Assembly (NCBI RefSeq): GCF_030296695.1
Contig: NZ_AP027737.1
Location: forward strand, 682,001-746,000
Length of the DNA stretch: 64,000 nucleotides
Direction of reading: 5' to 3'
Origin: Agromyces mangrovi
GTDB lineage: Bacteria; Actinomycetota; Actinomycetes; Actinomycetales; Microbacteriaceae
Below, in pieces: positions 3,296 through 41,907 of the stretch. The notes beneath the pieces are model-generated. The model was not told the origin of the DNA. It saw nothing but the letters and a program-made list of their open reading frames with translations, and searched no databases. The translations under genes and the position numbers were made by a program. Position 1 is the first letter of the stretch. Every line of letters starts with the position of its first letter.

Positions 3296-3976
3296 CTACG
3301 CCTCGAAGCGGTAGCCGAGCCCGCGCACCGTCACGAGCATGACCGGGTCCGACGGCGTGTGCTCGATCTTCGACCGGATGCGCTTGATGTGCACGTCGAG
3401 CGTCTTCGTGTCGCCGAAGTAGTCCGACCCCCACACGCGGTCGATCAGCTGCCCGCGCGTGAGCACCCGGCCGGCGTTGCGCATGAGCAGCTCGAGCAGC
3501 TCGAATTCCTTCAGCGGCATGGAGATCTCGTCGCCGTCGACCGCGACGGTGTGGCGCTCGACGTCCATGCGCACTCGCCCGGCCTCGAGGATGCGGTCGT
3601 CGAGGTCCTCGTCGTCGACGCGGCGGCGCAGCACGGCGCGGATGCGCGCGAGCAGCTCGCGCGTCGAGTAGGGCTTCGTGACGTAGTCGTCGGCGCCGAG
3701 CTCCAGCCCGACGACGATGTCCACCTCGGAGTCCTTCGCGGTGAGCATGATGATGGGCACGCTCGACCGGGCGCGCAGCTCGCGGCACACCTCGGTGCCG
3801 GGCAGGCCCGGCAGCATGAGGTCGAGCAGCACCAGGTCGGCGCCGGCGCGATCGAACGCGGTCACGGCGCCGGCGCCGTCGCCGGCGACCTCCACCTCGT
3901 AGCCCTCGCGCTCGAGCAGGTAGCTGAGCGGTTCGCTCAGCGCGACCTCGTCCTCGACGAGCAGGATGCGTGTCAC
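3296..3976 (-). CDS. regX3: OmpR/PhoB-family response regulator, RegX3-type
   Basis: 226 aa. The receiver domain has LVEDE, phospho-Asp in LVLLDLMLPG, and Lys in DDYVTKPYS. The winged-helix DNA-binding domain (about 130-226) contains MPLKEFELLELLMRNAGRVLTR and the C-terminal VRGLGYRFEA. Its GTG start overlaps the stop of the upstream kinase by 4 bp. In actinobacteria the SenX3-RegX3 (PhoR-PhoP) pair turns on the phosphate-starvation regulon; here divergent phoU, nearby pstSCAB and PHO boxes support that role. Confidence 0.93.
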   Translation of the reverse strand: MTRILLVEDEVALSEPLSYLLEREGYEVEVAGDGAGAVTAFDRAGADLVLLDLMLPGLPGTEVCRELRARSSVPIIMLTAKDSEVDIVVGLELGADDYVTKPYSTRELLARIRAVLRRRVDDEDLDDRILEAGRVRMDVERHTVAVDGDEISMPLKEFELLELLMRNAGRVLTRGQLIDRVWGSDYFGDTKTLDVHIKRIRSKIEHTPSDPVMLVTVRGLGYRFEA

Positions 3977-5172
3977 GTGCGTGTCTCCTCGGGTGATGCG
4001 GACACGGCGTCCGCGGCAGTGGATGGGTTCGACGGCGGCGCCGGGACGGCCGCAGCCTCGGGCAGGCGGATGGTGAACGTCGAGCCGCGCCCCGGCCGTG
4101 ACCAGACGCGCACGTCCCCACCGTGGTTCTGCACCGTGTGCTTGACGATCGCGAGGCCGAGCCCGGAACCGCCCGTGTCGCGTGCGCGTGCCTGGTCGAC
4201 GCGGTAGAAGCGCTCGAACACGCGGTCGAGGTCGGCCTCGGCGATGCCGATGCCCTGGTCGGTCACGGCGATCTCGACCACCCCGTCGGCGGACCGGTAC
4301 ACGCCGACCCCGACCCGCGACCCCTCGTGCGAGTAGGTGAGCGCGTTCGCGACCAGGTTGTGCACCGCCACGCGGAGCAGGGCCTCGTCGCCGTAGACGG
4401 CGGCCTTCGACTTGGCCTTGATGGCGATGTCGACGCGCTTCGACGCCGCGATCACCCGGTTCTGGTCGACCGCCTGGCGCACGAGCGCGTCCACCTCGAT
4501 GCGCTGGGCGGACTCCACCGCCTCATGCGCCTGCAGGCGGGAGAGCTCGATGATCTCGTTGGTGATGCGGCCGAGTCGCGCCGACTCCTCGGTGAGCCGC
4601 TGCGCGAACCGCCGCACCTGGCCCGGGTCGTCGGCGGCGTGGTCGAGCGCCTCGGCGAGCAGGGTGACCGAGGCGATCGGGGTCTTCAGCTCGTGGCTGA
4701 TGTTCGCCACGAAGTCGCGCCGCACGTCGTCGAGCCGGTTCGCCTCGGTGCGGTCCTCGGCGAGCAGCATGACGTACCGCGTGCCGAGGCGCGCGGCGCG
4801 CACCCGCAGCTGCAGGGTCGTGTCGCCGATCGGCCCGCGCACGACGCGCAGCTCCTCGGTCGTCGCCTCGCCAGAGCGGCGGACCCGGTCGACGAGCGAG
4901 ACGAGCTCCGCGTGCACGAGCGCGCGGTCCCAGACGAGGCCCATGGCGAGGGCACCGGGCGACGCCTTCAGCACGTTGTTCGACGGGTCGAGCACCACGC
5001 CCGCGGTCTCGAGCGCGTCGAGCATCTGGTCGATCCCGTCGGGGATCGTCGGATTGACCACACGTGCCGCGCGCGAACCGCGTCGCTCGGCGACCAGGAA
5101 GACGACCACGAACGCCGCCCCGATCACGATGCCCACCGCGAGCGCGGCGAGCACCAGCCAGGTGGACTCCAT
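3973..5172 (-). CDS. senX3: Phosphate-sensing histidine kinase, SenX3-type
   Basis: 399 aa. One N-terminal membrane helix (LAALAVGIVIGAAFVVVFLV) is followed by a PAS-like region, a HisKA domain with phospho-His in ANISHELKTPIAS, and an HATPase_c domain with N (HNLVANALTYS), G1 (DQGIGI), F (FERFYRVD) and G2 (GSGLGLAIVK) boxes. The start is uncertain: ATG 5172 gives MESTWLV, while ATG 5181 adds three residues. It is cotranscribed with regX3 and divergent from phoU, the arrangement in which PhoU and Pst repress the kinase when phosphate is plentiful. Confidence 0.93.
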   Translation of the reverse strand: MESTWLVLAALAVGIVIGAAFVVVFLVAERRGSRAARVVNPTIPDGIDQMLDALETAGVVLDPSNNVLKASPGALAMGLVWDRALVHAELVSLVDRVRRSGEATTEELRVVRGPIGDTTLQLRVRAARLGTRYVMLLAEDRTEANRLDDVRRDFVANISHELKTPIASVTLLAEALDHAADDPGQVRRFAQRLTEESARLGRITNEIIELSRLQAHEAVESAQRIEVDALVRQAVDQNRVIAASKRVDIAIKAKSKAAVYGDEALLRVAVHNLVANALTYSHEGSRVGVGVYRSADGVVEIAVTDQGIGIAEADLDRVFERFYRVDQARARDTGGSGLGLAIVKHTVQNHGGDVRVWSRPGRGSTFTIRLPEAAAVPAPPSNPSTAADAVSASPEETRT

Positions 5173-5243
5173 GACCCTCATCGTACGTACTCGGTGGGGG
5201 GCGGCTTGCACGCGGGCCCCCGGACGGCGCTACTTTAGAGTCT

Positions 5244-5276: not shown

Positions 5277-5351
5277 GCGGCGACCATGTCGTGGGCGAGC
5301 GAGGTTCGCCCGTGCCCGAGTCACGAAACCCGAGAAGAGGGATGTCGAAGC

Positions 5352-6014
5352 ATGCGCGAAGTCTTCCAGCAGGAGATGCGTGACGTCCAGGACCGCCTGG
5401 TGGAGATCGCGGAACGCGTCGCCGAATCGATCGAGAAGGCCACCCGCGCGTTCAACGAGTCGAACGTCGCACTCGCCGAGGAGGTCATCGCCGGCGACCC
5501 GCTCATCGACGAGGCCGCGCTGCAGCTCGACGAGCTCACGATCACGATCCTGGCCCGCCAGCAGCCGGTCGCCCGCGACCTGCGCATCACGGTGAGCGCG
5601 CTGCGCGTCAGCGCGTCGCTCGAGCGCATGGGCGACATCGCACGGCACATCGCGCAGCTCGCCCGCTACCGGTTCCCCGACAAGGTGGTGCCGAAGTCGC
5701 TGCGCCCCACCTTCTCGGAGATGGGCCGCATCGACGTCGAGCTCGCCACCAAGCTGGTCGAGCTGCTCCGCACGCAGGACGTCGAGATCGCCGAGGCCAT
5801 CCGCGAGCAGGACGACGAGCTCGACGACCTGCACCTCAGCGTCTTCGAGAAGGTGCTCAGCGAGACCTGGAGCGGCGAGGCCGCGTCGACCGTCGACGCG
5901 ACGCTCGCGAGCCGGTACCACGAGCGGTTCGGCGACCACGCGGTGTCGATCGCGAAGAAGGTGCAGTACCTGGCGACCGGCGACTGGGACGTCGACCGCA
6001 CGCCGGAGGCGTAG
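5352..6014 (+). CDS. phoU: Phosphate signalling protein PhoU
   Basis: 220 aa, two PhoU four-helix repeats. The start MREVFQQEMRDVQDRL and the paired acidic/asparagine metal-binding helices (ALERMGDIARHIAQLA and RYHERFGDHAVSIA) are typical. PhoU links the Pst transporter to the sensor kinase and damps the Pho response when phosphate is abundant. ATG 5352 is chosen because an AGAGGGA ribosome site precedes it and homologs begin here. It is divergent from senX3-regX3. Confidence 0.95.
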   Translation: MREVFQQEMRDVQDRLVEIAERVAESIEKATRAFNESNVALAEEVIAGDPLIDEAALQLDELTITILARQQPVARDLRITVSALRVSASLERMGDIARHIAQLARYRFPDKVVPKSLRPTFSEMGRIDVELATKLVELLRTQDVEIAEAIREQDDELDDLHLSVFEKVLSETWSGEAASTVDATLASRYHERFGDHAVSIAKKVQYLATGDWDVDRTPEA

Positions 6015-15009: not shown

Positions 15010-15031
15010 GTTCACCTCCCGTTCACCGATG
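15010..15031 (+). promoter_or_regulatory. PHO box upstream of pstS
   Basis: Two direct repeats, GTTCACCTCCC at 15010 and GTTCACCGATG at 15021, exactly 11 bp apart, about 90 nt before the pstS GTG. This is the textbook PhoP/RegX3 operator and predicts phosphate-starvation induction of the pst operon. Confidence 0.85.
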
Positions 15032-15122
15032 GGGAGACGACGCGTCACTCGTGCTGCGTACCGTCGCTCGCGTGCCGGAGATCTCCGGCCGTCACCTGCA
15101 TCCGAACCCGGAAGGGAATCAC

Positions 15123-16217
15123 GTGAATCTCAAGCGTTTCGGCGCCCCCGCCGCAATCGCCGCCGCCGCAGCACTCGCGCTCAGCTCCTGCGCGGCCAAC
15201 GAGGGAGGCTCCTCGTCCGACGACACCACCGACTCGTCGCTCTCCGGCACCCTCGTGGGTGCAGGCGCCTCGTCGCAGGGCTCCGCTCAGGAGGCCTGGA
15301 TCGCCGCGTTCCAGACCGCGAACCCCGACGTGACCGTCAACTACGACCCGTCGGGCTCGGGCGCCGGTCGCGAGACGTTCCAGGAGGGCGCCAGCGACTT
15401 CGCCGGTTCCGACCGTGCGTTCAACGACGAGGAGATCGCCGAGGGCAACTTCCAGGCCTGCGCTCCCGACACGAACATCATCGAGCTGCCGCTGTACATC
15501 TCGCCGATCGCCGTGATCTTCAACCTCGAGGGCGTCGAGACGCTGAACCTCGACGCCGACACCCTCGCCGGCATCTTCGGCGGCGAGATCACCAACTGGA
15601 ACGACGACGCGATCGTCGAGCAGAACGACGGCGTCGAGCTGCCCGACCTGGCCATCACCGCCGTGCACCGTGCCGACGACTCGGGCACCACCGAGAACTT
15701 CACCGAGTACCTCGGTGCGGCTGCTCCCGACTTGTGGACCTACGAGGCCGACGGCGTCTGGCCGTTCGAGGGCGGCGAGGCCGCCCAGGGCACCTCGGGC
15801 GTCGTCGACGCCGTGACCAACGGCACCGGCACCATCGGCTACGCCGACGCGTCGCGCGCCGGCGACCTCGGCACCGTCGCGGTCAAGGTCGGCGAGGAGT
15901 ACGTGCCGTACTCGCCCGAGGCCGCTGCCGCGATCGTCGACGCGTCGCCGTTCGTCGAGGGCCGCTCGGAGTTCGACCTCGCGATCGAGCTCCAGCGCGA
16001 CACGACCGAGTCGGGCACCTACCCGATCGTGCTGGTCAGCTACCTCGTCGCCTGCGAGCAGTACGCCGACTCGGCCAACGTCGAGCTCGTGAAGGCGTAC
16101 CTCGGCTACATCGCCAGCCCCGAGGGCCAGGACGCGTCGGCCGAGTCCGCCGGTTCGGCTCCGATCTCGGAGAACCTGCGCGAGCTCGCCACCGCTGCGA
16201 TCGACTCGATCCAGTAA
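15123..16217 (+). CDS. pstS: Phosphate-binding lipoprotein PstS
   Basis: 364 aa. Signal peptide and lipobox LSSC near residue 22 anchor it outside the membrane. Phosphate-binding motifs: GAGASSQGSAQEAW, DPSGSGAGRETF, DFAGSDRAF, and HRADDSGTTENFTEYL. It delivers phosphate to PstCA. GTG 15123 is preceded by GGAAGGGA. First gene of pstSCAB; a strong hairpin follows, which should allow a higher pstS level than its transporter partners. Confidence 0.97.
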   Translation: MNLKRFGAPAAIAAAAALALSSCAANEGGSSSDDTTDSSLSGTLVGAGASSQGSAQEAWIAAFQTANPDVTVNYDPSGSGAGRETFQEGASDFAGSDRAFNDEEIAEGNFQACAPDTNIIELPLYISPIAVIFNLEGVETLNLDADTLAGIFGGEITNWNDDAIVEQNDGVELPDLAITAVHRADDSGTTENFTEYLGAAAPDLWTYEADGVWPFEGGEAAQGTSGVVDAVTNGTGTIGYADASRAGDLGTVAVKVGEEYVPYSPEAAAAIVDASPFVEGRSEFDLAIELQRDTTESGTYPIVLVSYLVACEQYADSANVELVKAYLGYIASPEGQDASAESAGSAPISENLRELATAAIDSIQ

Positions 16218-37469: not shown

Positions 37470-38921
37470 TCAGCCGAGCCGACTCGGCACAGGTGCCTCA
37501 ACGCCCGTGTCGACCGGCGCATACCCGAGCGGGGCGGATGCTCCGGGCTGCAGCGCGGCCTTCACGCGACGCGCGCGCCGGAGCACCCATCGCGCGGGCA
37601 ACGCGACCGCGGTCGCCGCGGCGCCCGCCACTGCAGCGGGTCCGGCGTCGTGCTGGCCGAGCATCCGTCGCCGCTCGTAGGCACGGCGCACCGCGCCGCC
37701 GGTGAGGTTGTGGCGACGCACCCGCTGCGGCAGCACGCCGCGGTCGCGGGCGGCGACCAGGGCGCCGAGCTGCACGATCCAGTCGTCGTCGGCAGCGGGG
37801 TGGAAGTAGTTGTCCTCGAGCCATGCCGGGTCGGGGTCGCGGTAGTCGCCCGCGACCAGCGCCTCGTGGCCGGCGAGCAACCCGCTGCCGACGAACACGG
37901 TGTTGATCATGGCCTTCTCGACCCCGAAGTCGTCGAGCAGCAGCGCCGGCACGCCGGCTGCCACGGCCTCGAGCACCGCGGTCGAGCTCACGGTCACGAG
38001 CGCGGCGGCGCGCTCGAGATGCGCCGACATGGGGCCGTCCTCGATCACGAGGTTGGTCGGCAGCCCGACCGACGCGGACCGCGCGGCGAGGAGGTCCTGC
38101 AGGTCGTGCGCCTCGGCGTGCGTCTGCGCCTCGCCCGACCGGGCGCGCACCTTCACGACCACGCGCCGCCCGGGCTGCGCTCGGGCCGCATCGACGAGCC
38201 AGCCGACGAGGCGCTCGCGGTCCTCGAGGGCGCGCGGCACCTTCGCCTGCACGGCGAACACGACGTCGTCGCGCGGTGCGTCGGCGGAGCGGGCCCGCGC
38301 CGGCTCAGCGGCATCCGACCCCCTGCCCCTGACGGACCCGCCCAGGAACGGCAGGCGCGCGAGCCCGAAGCTCACGTCGACCGGCATTCCGGCGGCGTTG
38401 CGCGCGAACTCGCGCACCTCGCGCCGGCTGTGCAGCACGATGAGGTCGGTCTGCTCGCGGTAGACGATCGCCTTGGGCTCGGCCGGGATCGTGATGCCGG
38501 GGAAGCCGCTCAGCAGCACCGGGCGGTCGGGGCGAGCGGCGATCCGCGGCGCGACCACCCGCACGAGCGGGCCGCGCAGCGCGAGGAGCACCACGTCGGG
38601 CTGCCGCACGTCGAGGATCGTGTCGAGGCCATCGAGGTCGACCACGCGCAGCGCGTCGAGCGAGCACGCCGTGCCGTCGAGCGCGACGCGCACCTGGCGG
38701 GCGCTCGGCAGCACAGGCGAGTCGAGCAGCACGACCTGCACGCGCCACGAGCCCGGCACGCCCGATCCCGGGCGCAGCGGCCCCGGCAGCGTCCACGCCA
38801 GCGACGCACCCCACTTCAGGTAGGAATCGCTGTCGGCCACGACCAGCATGCGGCGCGAACGCCCCGCACCGGCATCCGACGACCCGCTCACCGGGCCGGC
38901 CCCATCCGAGCCCTCGCTCAC
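37470..38921 (-). CDS. Putative glycosyltransferase, DUF6716-like
   Basis: 483 aa. A GT-B-like two-half protein: LVVADSDSYLKWGASLAW near the N-terminus, and in the C-terminal half LVTVSSTAVLEAVAAGVPALLLDDFGV, which resembles the donor-site loop of capsule/polysialyl-type transferases. GTG 38921 overlaps the neuB stop (GTGA). As third gene after CMP-nonulosonate genes it is the best candidate to transfer that sugar. DUF6716 is my recognition of the family, not proven. Confidence 0.72.
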   Translation of the reverse strand: MSEGSDGAGPVSGSSDAGAGRSRRMLVVADSDSYLKWGASLAWTLPGPLRPGSGVPGSWRVQVVLLDSPVLPSARQVRVALDGTACSLDALRVVDLDGLDTILDVRQPDVVLLALRGPLVRVVAPRIAARPDRPVLLSGFPGITIPAEPKAIVYREQTDLIVLHSRREVREFARNAAGMPVDVSFGLARLPFLGGSVRGRGSDAAEPARARSADAPRDDVVFAVQAKVPRALEDRERLVGWLVDAARAQPGRRVVVKVRARSGEAQTHAEAHDLQDLLAARSASVGLPTNLVIEDGPMSAHLERAAALVTVSSTAVLEAVAAGVPALLLDDFGVEKAMINTVFVGSGLLAGHEALVAGDYRDPDPAWLEDNYFHPAADDDWIVQLGALVAARDRGVLPQRVRRHNLTGGAVRRAYERRRMLGQHDAGPAAVAGAAATAVALPARWVLRRARRVKAALQPGASAPLGYAPVDTGVEAPVPSRLG

Positions 38922-39808
38922 GAGACCAGCACGCGCCGCAGCTTGGCGCGCGGCGCCTCCTCGCCCGGGAAGACGCGCTTGATGCCGTCGCCCATGGCCT
39001 CGCCGATGATGCGGATGTCGCGGACGAGATGCTGCAGCCCCTGCGGCTCGAGCGAGGCGGCGTGGTCGCTGCCCCACATCGTGCGGTCGAGCGTGATGTG
39101 CCGTTCGACGGCCACCGCGCCGAGCGCGACCGCGGCGAGCGAGATCTGCAGCCCGGGCTCGTGGCCCGAGTACCCGACCGGCACGCCCGGGTAGCGCAGC
39201 TGCAGCGTGTCGATCATGCGCAGGTTCGCTTCCTCGGCGGGCATCGGGTAGCTCGACGTGGCGTGCAGGAGCACGAGTCGCTCGGTACCCAGCACCTCGA
39301 CCGCGCGGTCGATCTCCTCGATCGTCGACATGCCGGTCGAGCAGATGACGGGACGACCGGTGGCGGCGATGGCGCGCAGCAGCTCGAGGTCGGTGACCGA
39401 GGCGGATGCCACCTTGTACGCCACCGGCTCGTGACCGAATGCGCCCAGCGCCTCGAGGAACTCCACCGAGGGCACGTCCCACGGCGAGGCGAACCAGTCG
39501 AGGCCGACGGATGCCGCGTGCTCGGCCACCGCACGGTACTCCGCCACGCCGAACTCCACGCGACGCCGGTAGTCGAGGTAGCTCATGGTGCCCCACGGCG
39601 TCTCGCGGGGCATGTCGCGCATGTGCTCGGGCGTCGCGATCTCGGGCGTGCGCTTCTGGAACTTCACCGCCTGCGCGCCCGCGTCGGCGGCCACGTCGAT
39701 GAGCCGGCGCGCGAGCTCGACGTCGCCGTTGTGGTTGAGCCCGATCTCGCCGATGACGTAGACCGGCTCGCCGTAGCCGACCGCGTTGCGGCCGATGCGA
39801 ATCGCCAT
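38918..39808 (-). CDS. neuB: NeuB/SpsE-family nonulosonic acid synthase
   Basis: 296 aa. Condenses a hexose(amine) or its phosphate with phosphoenolpyruvate to make a nine-carbon nonulosonic acid. TIM-barrel motifs: YVIGEIGLNHNGD, AQAVKFQKRTPE, YKVASASVTDLELLRAI, HATSSYPMPAEEANL, and GYSGHEPGLQISLAAVALGAV. It ends soon after the barrel and appears to lack the C-terminal SAF (antifreeze-like) domain of most NeuB proteins. GGAGGAAG ribosome site before ATG 39808. The exact sugar (Kdn, Neu5Ac or other) is not settled. Confidence 0.88.
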   Translation of the reverse strand: MAIRIGRNAVGYGEPVYVIGEIGLNHNGDVELARRLIDVAADAGAQAVKFQKRTPEIATPEHMRDMPRETPWGTMSYLDYRRRVEFGVAEYRAVAEHAASVGLDWFASPWDVPSVEFLEALGAFGHEPVAYKVASASVTDLELLRAIAATGRPVICSTGMSTIEEIDRAVEVLGTERLVLLHATSSYPMPAEEANLRMIDTLQLRYPGVPVGYSGHEPGLQISLAAVALGAVAVERHITLDRTMWGSDHAASLEPQGLQHLVRDIRIIGEAMGDGIKRVFPGEEAPRAKLRRVLVS

Positions 39809-39821
39809 GGGGCTTCCTCCT

Positions 39822-41048
39822 CTAGTACCAGATGGCACCGGCGAGCGCCGGCTGGTCGGTCGACCGCACCTCTGCGGCGGCGCGGGCGCCGAGCACGAGG
39901 TCGGACAGCTCGCGCACGGCGCCGTCGCCGCCCGCCTTCGTCAGCACGTGGCGTGCGAGCGCGAGCGCCTCCGGCGCGGCATCCGCCACCACCACCGGCC
40001 AGCCCACGAGCCGCAGGCAGCCGAGGTCGCCCACGTCGTTGCCGACGTACGCGATGCGCTCGAGCGGGATGCCCAGCCGCTCGGCCCAGGCCCGCAGCTC
40101 GGGGGCCTTGTCGCGCACGCCGTGCACGACGTCGACACCGAGCTTCGCCGCGCGCGCCGCGACCACCGGGTTCTGCTCGACCGAGAGGATCAGCATCGGC
40201 ACGCCCGCCTCGCGCAGCATCTTCACGCCGTGCCCGTCGCTGCGGCTCACCCGCACCCGCTCGGTGCCGTCGCTGCCCACGTACGCGGTGTCGTCGGTGT
40301 GCACGCCGTCGAAGTCGGTGACCACGGCGTCGACGTCGATGCACGGCACCGCGGGCACGAGCGCCGAGGGCGAGACGACCGCGGCGAGCGCGTCGGCGAG
40401 CGCCAGGTCGGCGGGAGTGTCGATCTCGAGAACGTGCGCGTCGGGCACGAGGCGGAAGCCGATGCGGCCGAAGAACCGGTGCTCGGCCGTGCGGAACCGG
40501 TCGGCGCGCATGACGTAGAAGGCGCCGGTCTCGCGGTACTCGGCCTCGCGGTCCTGCCGACGCAGGCGCGCGCCCGAGCTGTGGTTCACGCCGGCGGCGC
40601 CGCGCGAGGTGTGCCGCCAGAGGAACGCGTGGCTCTCGACGGCGGAGAAGACGACGTCGGCGTCGCCGTGGCGCACCTCGGCGACCGCGGCGTCGATGTC
40701 GGACGGGTCGATGAACGGCGAGGTCGCCTGCACGAACACCAGCACCTCGGGCATCCGCTCCTCGGCCTCGAGCGCGTCGAGTGCGTGCAGCAGCGCCGAC
40801 TCCGAACTCGCGGTGTCGCCCGAGAGGTCGGCGGGCCGGTCGACGACCTCGGCGCCCGCGGCCTCGGCGGTGGCCGCGATCTCGGCATCGTCGGTGGAGA
40901 CGACCACGAGGTCGACGGATGCCGCGGCGAGCGCCGCACGCACCGCGCGCGCGACGAGCGGCACGCCCGCGACCTCGCGCAGGTTCTTGCCGGGCACGCC
41001 CTTCGAGCCTCCGCGTGCGGGGATGACGACGATCACCTCGTGGGGCAT
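39822..41048 (-). CDS. neuA: CMP-nonulosonate cytidylyltransferase fused to KdsC-like phosphatase
   Basis: 408 aa. N-terminal NeuA domain: IPARGGSKGVPGKNLREVAG, then VQATSPF. C-terminal HAD domain of KdsC type: DFDGVHTDD with both catalytic Asp, and YVGNDVGDLGCL. The fusion could dephosphorylate a 9-phosphate and activate the product with CTP, as needed for a Kdn-9-phosphate route. ATG 41048 lies 6 nt after a TAGCCT -10, so the operon mRNA seems leaderless. First gene of the three-gene operon; PHO box upstream. Confidence 0.9.
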   Translation of the reverse strand: MPHEVIVVIPARGGSKGVPGKNLREVAGVPLVARAVRAALAAASVDLVVVSTDDAEIAATAEAAGAEVVDRPADLSGDTASSESALLHALDALEAEERMPEVLVFVQATSPFIDPSDIDAAVAEVRHGDADVVFSAVESHAFLWRHTSRGAAGVNHSSGARLRRQDREAEYRETGAFYVMRADRFRTAEHRFFGRIGFRLVPDAHVLEIDTPADLALADALAAVVSPSALVPAVPCIDVDAVVTDFDGVHTDDTAYVGSDGTERVRVSRSDGHGVKMLREAGVPMLILSVEQNPVVAARAAKLGVDVVHGVRDKAPELRAWAERLGIPLERIAYVGNDVGDLGCLRLVGWPVVVADAAPEALALARHVLTKAGGDGAVRELSDLVLGARAAAEVRSTDQPALAGAIWY

Positions 41049-41054
41049 GTCGCG

Positions 41055-41060
41055 AGGCTA
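41055..41060 (-). promoter_or_regulatory. -10 element (TAGCCT) of the neuA operon
   Basis: On the minus strand TAGCCT, 6 nt, ATG 41048; the last PHO-box unit ends 16 nt upstream of it, the spacing expected where an activator replaces the -35. Confidence 0.6.
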
Positions 41061-41076
41061 GGTTCGCGAACTTGCG

Positions 41077-41120
41077 CACGGGTGAGCGCCGGGTGAACGG
41101 CGCGGGCGCGCCCGGTGAAC
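41077..41120 (-). promoter_or_regulatory. PHO box controlling the nonulosonic-acid operon
   Basis: On the minus strand: GTTCACCGGGC (41110-41120), a degenerate unit, GTTCACCCGGC (41088-41098) and GCTCACCCGTG (41077-41087), all on an 11-bp period. Same sequence and spacing as the pstS box in this window. It could also act on the divergent TauE gene. Confidence 0.75.
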
Positions 41121-41153: not shown

Positions 41154-41159
41154 TACGGT
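41154..41159 (+). promoter_or_regulatory. -10 element (TACGGT) for leaderless TauE mRNA
   Basis: TACGGT, 7 nt, then GTG 41167; supports that start over GTG 41158, which overlaps the element. Confidence 0.4.
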
Positions 41160-41166
41160 GGAACCC

Positions 41167-41907
41167 GTGCCCGACCTGACCGCCCTCGCGTGGGTGCTGC
41201 TCGCATTCTCGGCGTTCATGGTCGGGGTGTCCAAGACCGCGCTGCCGGGCGCGAACACCATCTCGATCGCGCTGTTCGCCGCGGTGCTGCCGGCGCGGGC
41301 CTCGACCGGCGCCCTGCTGCTGCTCCTCATCGTCGGCGACCTGCTCGCGCTCTGGCTCTACCGCCGCCACGCCGACTGGGGCGCGCTGCTGGGCCTCGCC
41401 CCCGCGGTGGCCGTCGGCATCGCGCTCGGCGTGCTCTTCCTGGCGGTCGCGGACGACGCCTGGGTGCGCCGCGTGATCGCCGTGATCCTGCTGCTCGTGA
41501 TCGCGTTCACGCTGTGGCGCCGCCGGCGCGCGTCGGCCGACACCCCCACCGGCGGCCGCGTGGCGGCGTGGAGCTACGGCTCGCTCGGCGGGTTCACGAC
41601 CATGGTCGCGAACGCGGGCGGCCCCGTGATGACGATGTACTTCCTCGCGTCGCGGTTCCCCGTGCAGGCGTTCCTCGGCACGGCCGCGTGGTTCTTCGCG
41701 ATCGTGAACCTCGTGAAGGTGCCGTTCTCGGTCGGCCTCGGCATCATCACGCCCGCGACGCTGTTGCTCGACGTCGTGCTCGTGCCCGCGGTGCTCGTCG
41801 GCGGGTTCGTCGGCTGGAACCTCATGAAGCGGATGCCGCAGCGGGTGTTCGAGCGGATCGTGATCGTGCTGACCGTGGTCGGCGCGCTCTACCTGCTGCT
41901 CATGTAG
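41167..41907 (+). CDS. TauE/SafE-family anion exporter
   Basis: 246 aa, about eight membrane helices. Family features GVSKTALPGANTISI and FTTMVANAGGPVMTMYF are the two halves of the duplicated TauE motif. Members move sulfite, sulfoacetate or related anions. GTG 41167 is chosen on the -10 spacing. Confidence 0.88.
   Translation: MPDLTALAWVLLAFSAFMVGVSKTALPGANTISIALFAAVLPARASTGALLLLLIVGDLLALWLYRRHADWGALLGLAPAVAVGIALGVLFLAVADDAWVRRVIAVILLLVIAFTLWRRRRASADTPTGGRVAAWSYGSLGGFTTMVANAGGPVMTMYFLASRFPVQAFLGTAAWFFAIVNLVKVPFSVGLGIITPATLLLDVVLVPAVLVGGFVGWNLMKRMPQRVFERIVIVLTVVGALYLLLM

Follow-up and report, generated by a model that had tools for sequence, protein, structure and literature searches.

The DNA analysed here, called the window, is a 64,000-nucleotide stretch of the Agromyces mangrovi genome (NZ_AP027737.1, positions 682,001 to 746,000), and the element under study is the promoter of its minus-strand operon neuA-neuB-DUF6716. 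This promoter carries 11-bp GTTCACC-type repeats of the PHO-box kind, placed relative to the -10 hexamer as in the pstS promoter of the same window, and the arrangement was found at every neuA promoter compared within the genus. PhoP/RegX3-type phosphate control of the operon, proposed in the first-pass annotation, is well supported by this conserved geometry. The full scheme, in which phosphate-responsive induction of cytidine monophosphate (CMP)-activated ketodeoxynonulosonic acid (Kdn) synthesis by such a regulator would be followed by DUF6716-dependent transfer to a wall or surface glycan, was given a probability of about 0.7.

Promoter anatomy and comparison with pstS

The promoter elements and genes of the operon are as follows.

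41114..41120, minus strand: PHO-box unit 1, GTTCACC, 60 nt upstream of the -10 hexamer
41103..41109, minus strand: degenerate in-phase unit, GCGCCCG, 11 nt past unit 1
41092..41098, minus strand: PHO-box unit 3, GTTCACC, 38 nt upstream of the -10 hexamer, with the same spacing in related promoters
41081..41087, minus strand: PHO-box unit 4, GCTCACC, 27 nt upstream of the -10 hexamer
41055..41060, minus strand: -10 hexamer TAGCCT, ending 6 nt before the neuA ATG (41048)
39822..41048, minus strand: neuA-type CMP-nonulosonate cytidylyltransferase fused to a KdsC-like HAD phosphatase, 408 aa (P0001); Pfam CTP_transf_3 at residues 6-184
38918..39808, minus strand: NeuB-family nonulosonate synthase, 296 aa (P0002); Pfam NeuB, 260 bits, with relatives in the PDB
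37470..38921, minus strand: DUF6716 protein, 'putative glycosyltransferase', a probable transferase (P0003); Pfam, 417 bits; its GTG start overlaps the neuB stop

Clear GTTCACC-type units lie at 0, 22 and 33 nt in 11-bp phase, with the weak unit in the first gap, and 16 nt separate the end of the last 11-nt unit from TAGCCT. PHO boxes consist of 11-nt units with GTTCACC (PMC6988585). If two or more 11-nt direct repeats built on a GTTCACC core are taken to define a PHO box, such units are present before neuA at 41098 and 41087, plus 41120. The first-pass description of the promoter (11-bp repeats, 16 nt to TAGCCT and 6 nt to the ATG) was accurate, with the one refinement that the clear units 1 and 3 are 22 nt apart.

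The corresponding features at pstS are listed below.

15010..15027, plus strand: pstS PHO box, GTTCACC-tccc-GTTCACC, the sole other exact pair genome-wide
15059..15064, plus strand: pstS -10 hexamer, TACCGT, with the two units 49 and 38 nt upstream of it
15123..16217, plus strand: pstS; PBP_like_2, top NCBIfam model PstS TIGR00975 with 194 bits (cut-off 205)

The exact pattern GTTCACC-N6-TCACC has two sites in the 3,613,806-base genome, namely pstS (697010) and neuA (723081). Exact GTTCACC occurs 26 times in the window (both strands); four copies stand 20-71 nt before TA[GC][GC]NT, all of them in the pstS and neuA promoters and all at 38+11n nt. The earlier statement that the neuA repeats match those before pstS was borne out both by the exact pair, found at these two places alone, and by the common 38+11n spacing to the -10.

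The pstS comparison covered loci from 30 of 36 searched genomes, 23 of them belonging to the same genus and 7 to different families within the order. All 30 promoters held a GTTCACC-type pair scoring at least 12 together with TANNNT at 38+11n nt from a GTTCAYC or GTTCACN unit, and the reversed motif reached a maximum score of 10 there. That pstS and neuA answer to one regulator is suggested most strongly by this common promoter geometry. Judged by coordinates, 18.1-33.6 kb separate the two genes in all 19 same-genus genomes examined, a steady distance that may reflect selection or plain synteny.

Conservation of the neuA promoter

A neuA match was found in 34 of 36 same-genus genomes, with the A. 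mangrovi genome not counted. Thirty-one promoters were compared, comprising those of 28 of the 34 matched genomes, of A. mangrovi itself and of two further same-genus genomes; no locus was fetched for the other six matched genomes (G013, G017, G020, G021, G026 and G033). An exact GTTCACC within 90 nt before TA(G/C)NNT, the hexamer ending 5-7 nt before the ATG, was present in 31/31, and the distance to the -10 was 38+11n nt in each. The search for 11-bp-phased GTTCACC upstream of neuA orthologs, suggested earlier as a check, was positive for every same-genus promoter compared; these promoters are related, hence not independent events.

As a control, the same test with 399 other orderings of the GTTCACC letters gave a mean of 0.23 of the 31 promoters. 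The highest counts were 23, 18 and 11, from heptamers that are shifted overlaps of the GTTCACC site, and 10, from TCGACCT, which does not overlap it. In a wider set, 40 of 103 rows reached a two-unit score of 12 or more out of 14; random windows drawn from these loci did so in 2 of 3582 cases, and the reversed motif in none of the 103 rows. Nine of the rows are loci fetched twice, and of the 94 distinct loci 37, counted by hand, reach that score. A chance origin of the neuA box was rejected on the genome-wide count together with the random-window and permuted-heptamer controls.

Across Microbacteriaceae, the exact GTTCACC-TANNNT-start arrangement was present in 39 of 71 loci; the other 32 have an internal neuA, variant units or, at named loci, operon heads set by hand. 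Thirty-seven of the 39 arranged promoters have a distance of 27, 38, 49 or 60 nt (L056 and L131 are out of phase), and in 37 a gap of 6 nt separates the -10 from the start codon. Because of this last feature, we infer that transcription starts at or beside the neuA ATG and yields a leaderless mRNA. The neuA gene of Agromyces fucosus (L147) has the same promoter layout, and its scores against each of 31 loci from the window's genus exceed those against each of 11 other loci compared, in keeping with a placement in Agromyces.

The box also lies within the intergenic region shared with a divergent TauE/SafE permease gene (41158-41907). It is very improbable that it serves this permease and not neuA, since the repeats, the -10 and their spacing point to neuA, and a TauE homologue is the immediate upstream neighbour at only 3 of the 31 same-genus loci, all of which carry the box; control of the permease was rejected as the main role of the box on these counts.

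The box at operon heads in other lineages

In ten loci (L131, L132, L138, L139, L142, L144, L153, L155, L156 and L162) another sugar gene precedes neuA. The best pair before the first gene scored 10-12 in nine of these and 9 in L132, with controls of 8-9 for the reversed motif and 7-9 for the opposite strand. In these nine the box stays with the operon head although the gene order differs. Five of the ten (L138, L142, L144, L155 and L162; four titled Microbacterium and one a Microbacterium metagenome-assembled genome (MAG)) have the order GT2, polysialyltransferase-like gene, neuA, with the box before GT2; PF07388 was run on L138 alone (63 bits). A pair score of at least 12 near neuA misses the Microbacterium loci, and taken at the operon head the box appears there at 10-12.

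Head scores elsewhere were 12 (L149), 13 (L154), 11 (L160), 10 (L164), 9 (L150) and 8 (L165) in Micrococcaceae, and 13 (L152), 12 (L174) and 9 (L161) in Aeromicrobium. Streptosporangiales-type loci scored 8-9 (L133, L134, L137, L140 and L141) or 11 (L148), and further named loci 10 (L146) or 7-9 (L136, L143, L145, L151, L163, L166 and L167). In the Streptomyces loci a CTGTT(C/A)ACC...GTTGG block recurs before DUF6716, and its sequence is compatible with degenerate repeats.

One Microbacteriaceae MAG (L157) has a score of 13 on the strand opposite the coding one, where the score is 8. Its score-13 pairs, at L157:4637 and L157:6960 of the minus strand, point away from neuA and at oppositely oriented genes, among them one with a weak DUF6716 match.

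Candidate regulator

A probable phosphate-sensing pair is encoded in the window beside phoU.

3296..3976, minus strand: OmpR-family response regulator, probable PhoP/RegX3; Response_reg and Trans_reg_C, beside phoU
3973..5211, minus strand: sensor histidine kinase, probable PhoR/SenX3; top NCBIfam models PnpS and PhoR, below cut-off
5286..6014, plus strand: phoU; TIGR02135, 165 bits, above cut-off

The regulator was named PhoP/RegX3 because of its neighbour genes; the MtrA, YycF and PhoB models of NCBIfam score it alike, all below cut-off. These even scores would fit control of neuA by a different OmpR-family regulator, for instance of MtrA type, that reads similar 11-bp repeats for a purpose other than the phosphate response, and AfsR recognition overlapping PHO boxes has been described (PMC6988585). 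Such control is nevertheless improbable, as the neuA geometry is that of 30/30 pstS promoters and the exact pair is confined to pstS and neuA.

Enzymes and the likely sugar

The first-pass reading of the operon as a NeuA/KdsC fusion, a NeuB-family synthase and a putative glycosyltransferase agreed with the matches to CTP_transf_3 and a KdsC-like HAD domain, NeuB and DUF6716. The HAD domain scored 96 bits against the Kdn-9-phosphatase model NF058599 (cut-off 180) and 96 bits against the KdsC model (cut-off 208), and the closest solved chain to the fusion protein is 3mmz_A, a putative HAD hydrolase. The NeuB protein gave no SAF-domain match in the Pfam search and matched the NeuB_NnaB and PseI models below their cut-offs. 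Fusion of a phosphatase to a cytidylyltransferase implies a phosphorylated intermediate. The operon resembles the Kdn-9-phosphate pathway in encoding all three kinds of enzyme (Kdn-9-phosphate synthase, Kdn-9-phosphate phosphatase and CMP-Kdn synthetase; families, not activities), and differs from it in that the phosphatase is fused to the cytidylyltransferase, with its NF058599 score below cut-off and with putative substrates.

Two routes to N-acetylmannosamine (ManNAc) were searched for in the A. mangrovi genome, which is rated 95% complete. NanE (PF04131) had no match there and was present in 8 of 14 control genomes; the uridine diphosphate N-acetylglucosamine (UDP-GlcNAc) 2-epimerase family (PF02350, Epimerase_2) likewise had no match and was present in 11 of 14. 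Because no match to either family was found, and ManNAc and ManNAc-6-phosphate may therefore be lacking, the likeliest product of the operon is predicted to be Kdn made from mannose-6-phosphate. The nonulosonate product proposed in the first-pass annotation is supported, and narrowed to Kdn as the likeliest.

The product might instead be N-acetylneuraminic acid (Neu5Ac) or another acetamido nonulosonate, with ManNAc supplied by DUF6716 or an unrecognised enzyme. The below-cut-off NeuB_NnaB and PseI matches would agree with this, as would the nearest folds of DUF6716, which are UDP-GlcNAc 2-epimerases, NeuC included. It is disfavoured by the missing NanE and Epimerase_2 matches, by the phosphorylated intermediate that the fused phosphatase implies and by the link of homologous Streptomyces clusters to Kdn, and was judged unlikely.

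DUF6716 and the question of a polymer

DUF6716 has a predicted GT-B fold (structure model and fold search) and no PDB sequence match at E<=1. Its top fold matches are the epimerases named above and not CMP-sugar transferases; the 50 fold matches listed include no CMP-sialic acid transferase, an absence that carries no information. None of the fetched loci yielded an epimerase sequence with which the catalytic residues of DUF6716 could be compared.

The first-pass annotation had expected a polymer made on demand. The polysialyltransferase of the Microbacterium operons had no match in 19/19 same-genus genomes, A. mangrovi included (two other genomes of the order do match), so that DUF6716 could either polymerise the sugar or add single residues; a polysialyltransferase elsewhere in the A. 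mangrovi genome was thus rejected as a candidate for want of a match to the Microbacterium protein. With three genes in the operon and no such partner in the genus, Kdn may, under unchanged regulation, cap or branch a glycan that the cell already has and stay unpolymerised, with no separate nonulosonate polymer and no swap. This possibility deserves serious weight but falls short of being probable, because DUF6716 or a gene elsewhere could polymerise Kdn and homologous Streptomyces clusters are reported to make a Kdn-containing polymer.

The proposed switch would replace a phosphate-rich polymer, and candidate genes for such a polymer are present. In the A. mangrovi genome a Stealth protein was matched once (134.9 bits) and a TagF-like protein once and weakly (25.4 bits), and the 3.3-3.5 kb analysed around each match contained no PHO-like pair scoring at least 11. 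Wider stretches around the two genes held one weak pair each (score 11). They also held a three-unit PHO-like site (L248:6487-6515; units CTCCACG, GTTCACC and GTTCGGC) upstream of a calcineurin-like metallophosphoesterase gene (L248:6586-7524, outside the window) that lies some 2.5 kb away from the Stealth gene. At L247:6746-13511 (genome ~315-322 kb) an ABC-2 permease, the weak TagF-like protein, a CDP-alcohol transferase and a GT2 are grouped, a candidate locus for another wall polymer.

Proposed mechanism

When phosphate is scarce, a PhoP/RegX3-type regulator (probably 3296-3976) would bind the 11-bp repeats and help RNA polymerase to start at or beside the neuA ATG. The repeats would overlap the -35 region and, relative to the -10, share the helical phase of those at pstS. 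NeuB would then condense mannose-6-phosphate with phosphoenolpyruvate to Kdn-9-phosphate, the HAD domain would dephosphorylate it and the cytidylyltransferase domain would activate Kdn to CMP-Kdn. DUF6716 would finally move Kdn onto a surface or wall glycan, providing negative charge without phosphate in a presumed phosphate-saving role.

Several results weigh against this scheme. The neuA gene is not universal in the genus, being without a match in 2 of 36 same-genus genomes. There is no box near neuA in five of six Streptosporangiales-type loci, and the Streptomyces heads (8-11, opposite strand up to 12) are near control values. The regulator's model scores favour PhoB no more than MtrA or YycF, the best folds for DUF6716 are those of epimerases, and the Kdn assignment rests partly on absences in a 95%-complete genome.

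A more specific proposal is that in this genus phosphate starvation induces a minimal three-gene Kdn route that dispenses with the polysialyltransferase. DUF6716 would be a new kind of CMP-Kdn transferase and would by itself either polymerise Kdn or attach it to existing wall glycan. Phosphate-free wall charge would then arise by decoration, not by a replacement polymer as in Bacillus. This is put forward tentatively and is rather doubtful.

Relation to known systems

The first-pass annotation knew of no description of such control. PhoP-activated teichulosonic acid genes are, however, in print for Streptomyces (PMC8003754, PMC13011467; related PMC2267785, PMC6988585) and proposed for Planobispora, where PhoP-like expression was inferred and SCO4880 is given as a sialic acid synthase (PMC8269224). 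In Streptomyces, SLI_5146-5156 are reported to make a phosphate-free teichulosonic acid that replaces teichoic acid under phosphate limitation (PMC8003754), PhoP targets include SCO4873-4882 (PMC13011467), a phosphate-starvation table lists SCO4873 and 4877-4881 (PMC2267785), and the polymer is composed of galactose and Kdn (PMC7831098). A simple phosphate-saving role has been doubted for a different, teichuronic-like Streptomyces glycan (PMC13274773), which calls for caution. The available portion of a Pontimonas paper mentions sialic acid addition and not its regulation (PMC6106888). In the literature searched, which covers wall chemistry in part, no description was found of nonulosonate genes under Pho control in Microbacteriaceae.

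Clusters were recognised by NeuB, a CMP-transferase/phosphatase and DUF6716 together, a combination chosen from the loci, and all three are present here. The comparison used named Streptomyces other than the S. coelicolor record. The Streptomyces cluster (SCO4873-SCO4882; SLI_5146-SLI_5156), for which phosphate-starvation control is reported, is alike in having NeuB, a neuA-KdsC-type fusion and an adjoining DUF6716 homologue in the Streptomyces loci. It differs in order, being DUF6716-neuA-neuB where A. mangrovi has three genes, neuA-neuB-DUF6716, and in that the Streptomyces loci carry an untyped cluster-mate similar in size to the polysialyltransferase-type partner, which is unmatched in the 19 same-genus genomes searched. 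The Microbacterium operons (GT2, polysialyltransferase, neuA, neuB, DUF6716) have the core genes in common with A. mangrovi and carry a PHO-like box in front of their first gene, but have two additional transferase genes and a weaker two-unit score (11-12). The teichoic-to-teichuronic swap of Bacillus subtilis would be alike in function, with a Pho-controlled, phosphate-free acidic sugar under starvation, but uses another sugar and gene set, and no sign of a phosphate-rich polymer being turned down was seen around the Stealth and TagF-like genes.

The general idea is therefore already published for Streptomyces; what is new is the lineage, together with a measured geometry of the promoter and the minimal variant lacking the polysialyltransferase. 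Comparative genomics indicates that the Pho control reported for the Kdn genes of Streptomyces also reaches Microbacteriaceae, where the promoter is cleaner and can be measured. The operon offers a small system for asking how wall charge is kept without phosphate, and the minimal variant raises the question of the role of DUF6716 alone, an uncharacterised enzyme of interest in connection with CMP-Kdn.

Other PHO-like sites in the genome

With at most one mismatch to GTTCACC-N6-TCACC, 26 sites were found in the genome, whereas the reversed pattern gave 3. Of the 25 sites that were located relative to crude gene calls, 10 lay within a called open reading frame (ORF) and 15 outside. The list is not all noise, and few of its sites look promoter-like. 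Besides neuA, the 15 include the three sites described next.

A GntR/UTRA-family regulator gene outside the window (L246:7308-7379; genome ~2896308-2896379) has three 11-bp GTTCAC-type units upstream, consecutive at 2896350-2896378; its -10, TACCGT, ends 6 nt before the GTG, with a spacing of 48 and 59 nt, which is 38+11n minus one base. The one-mismatch site at 1273932 (L095:1501-1529) lies ~100 nt upstream of a purF-like gene, named by eye from its N-terminus, and consists of GTTCACC, GCCCACC and CTTCACC at 11-bp spacing, with no TANNNT 20-65 nt away. Another one-mismatch site, at 627564, lies upstream of a small ORF.

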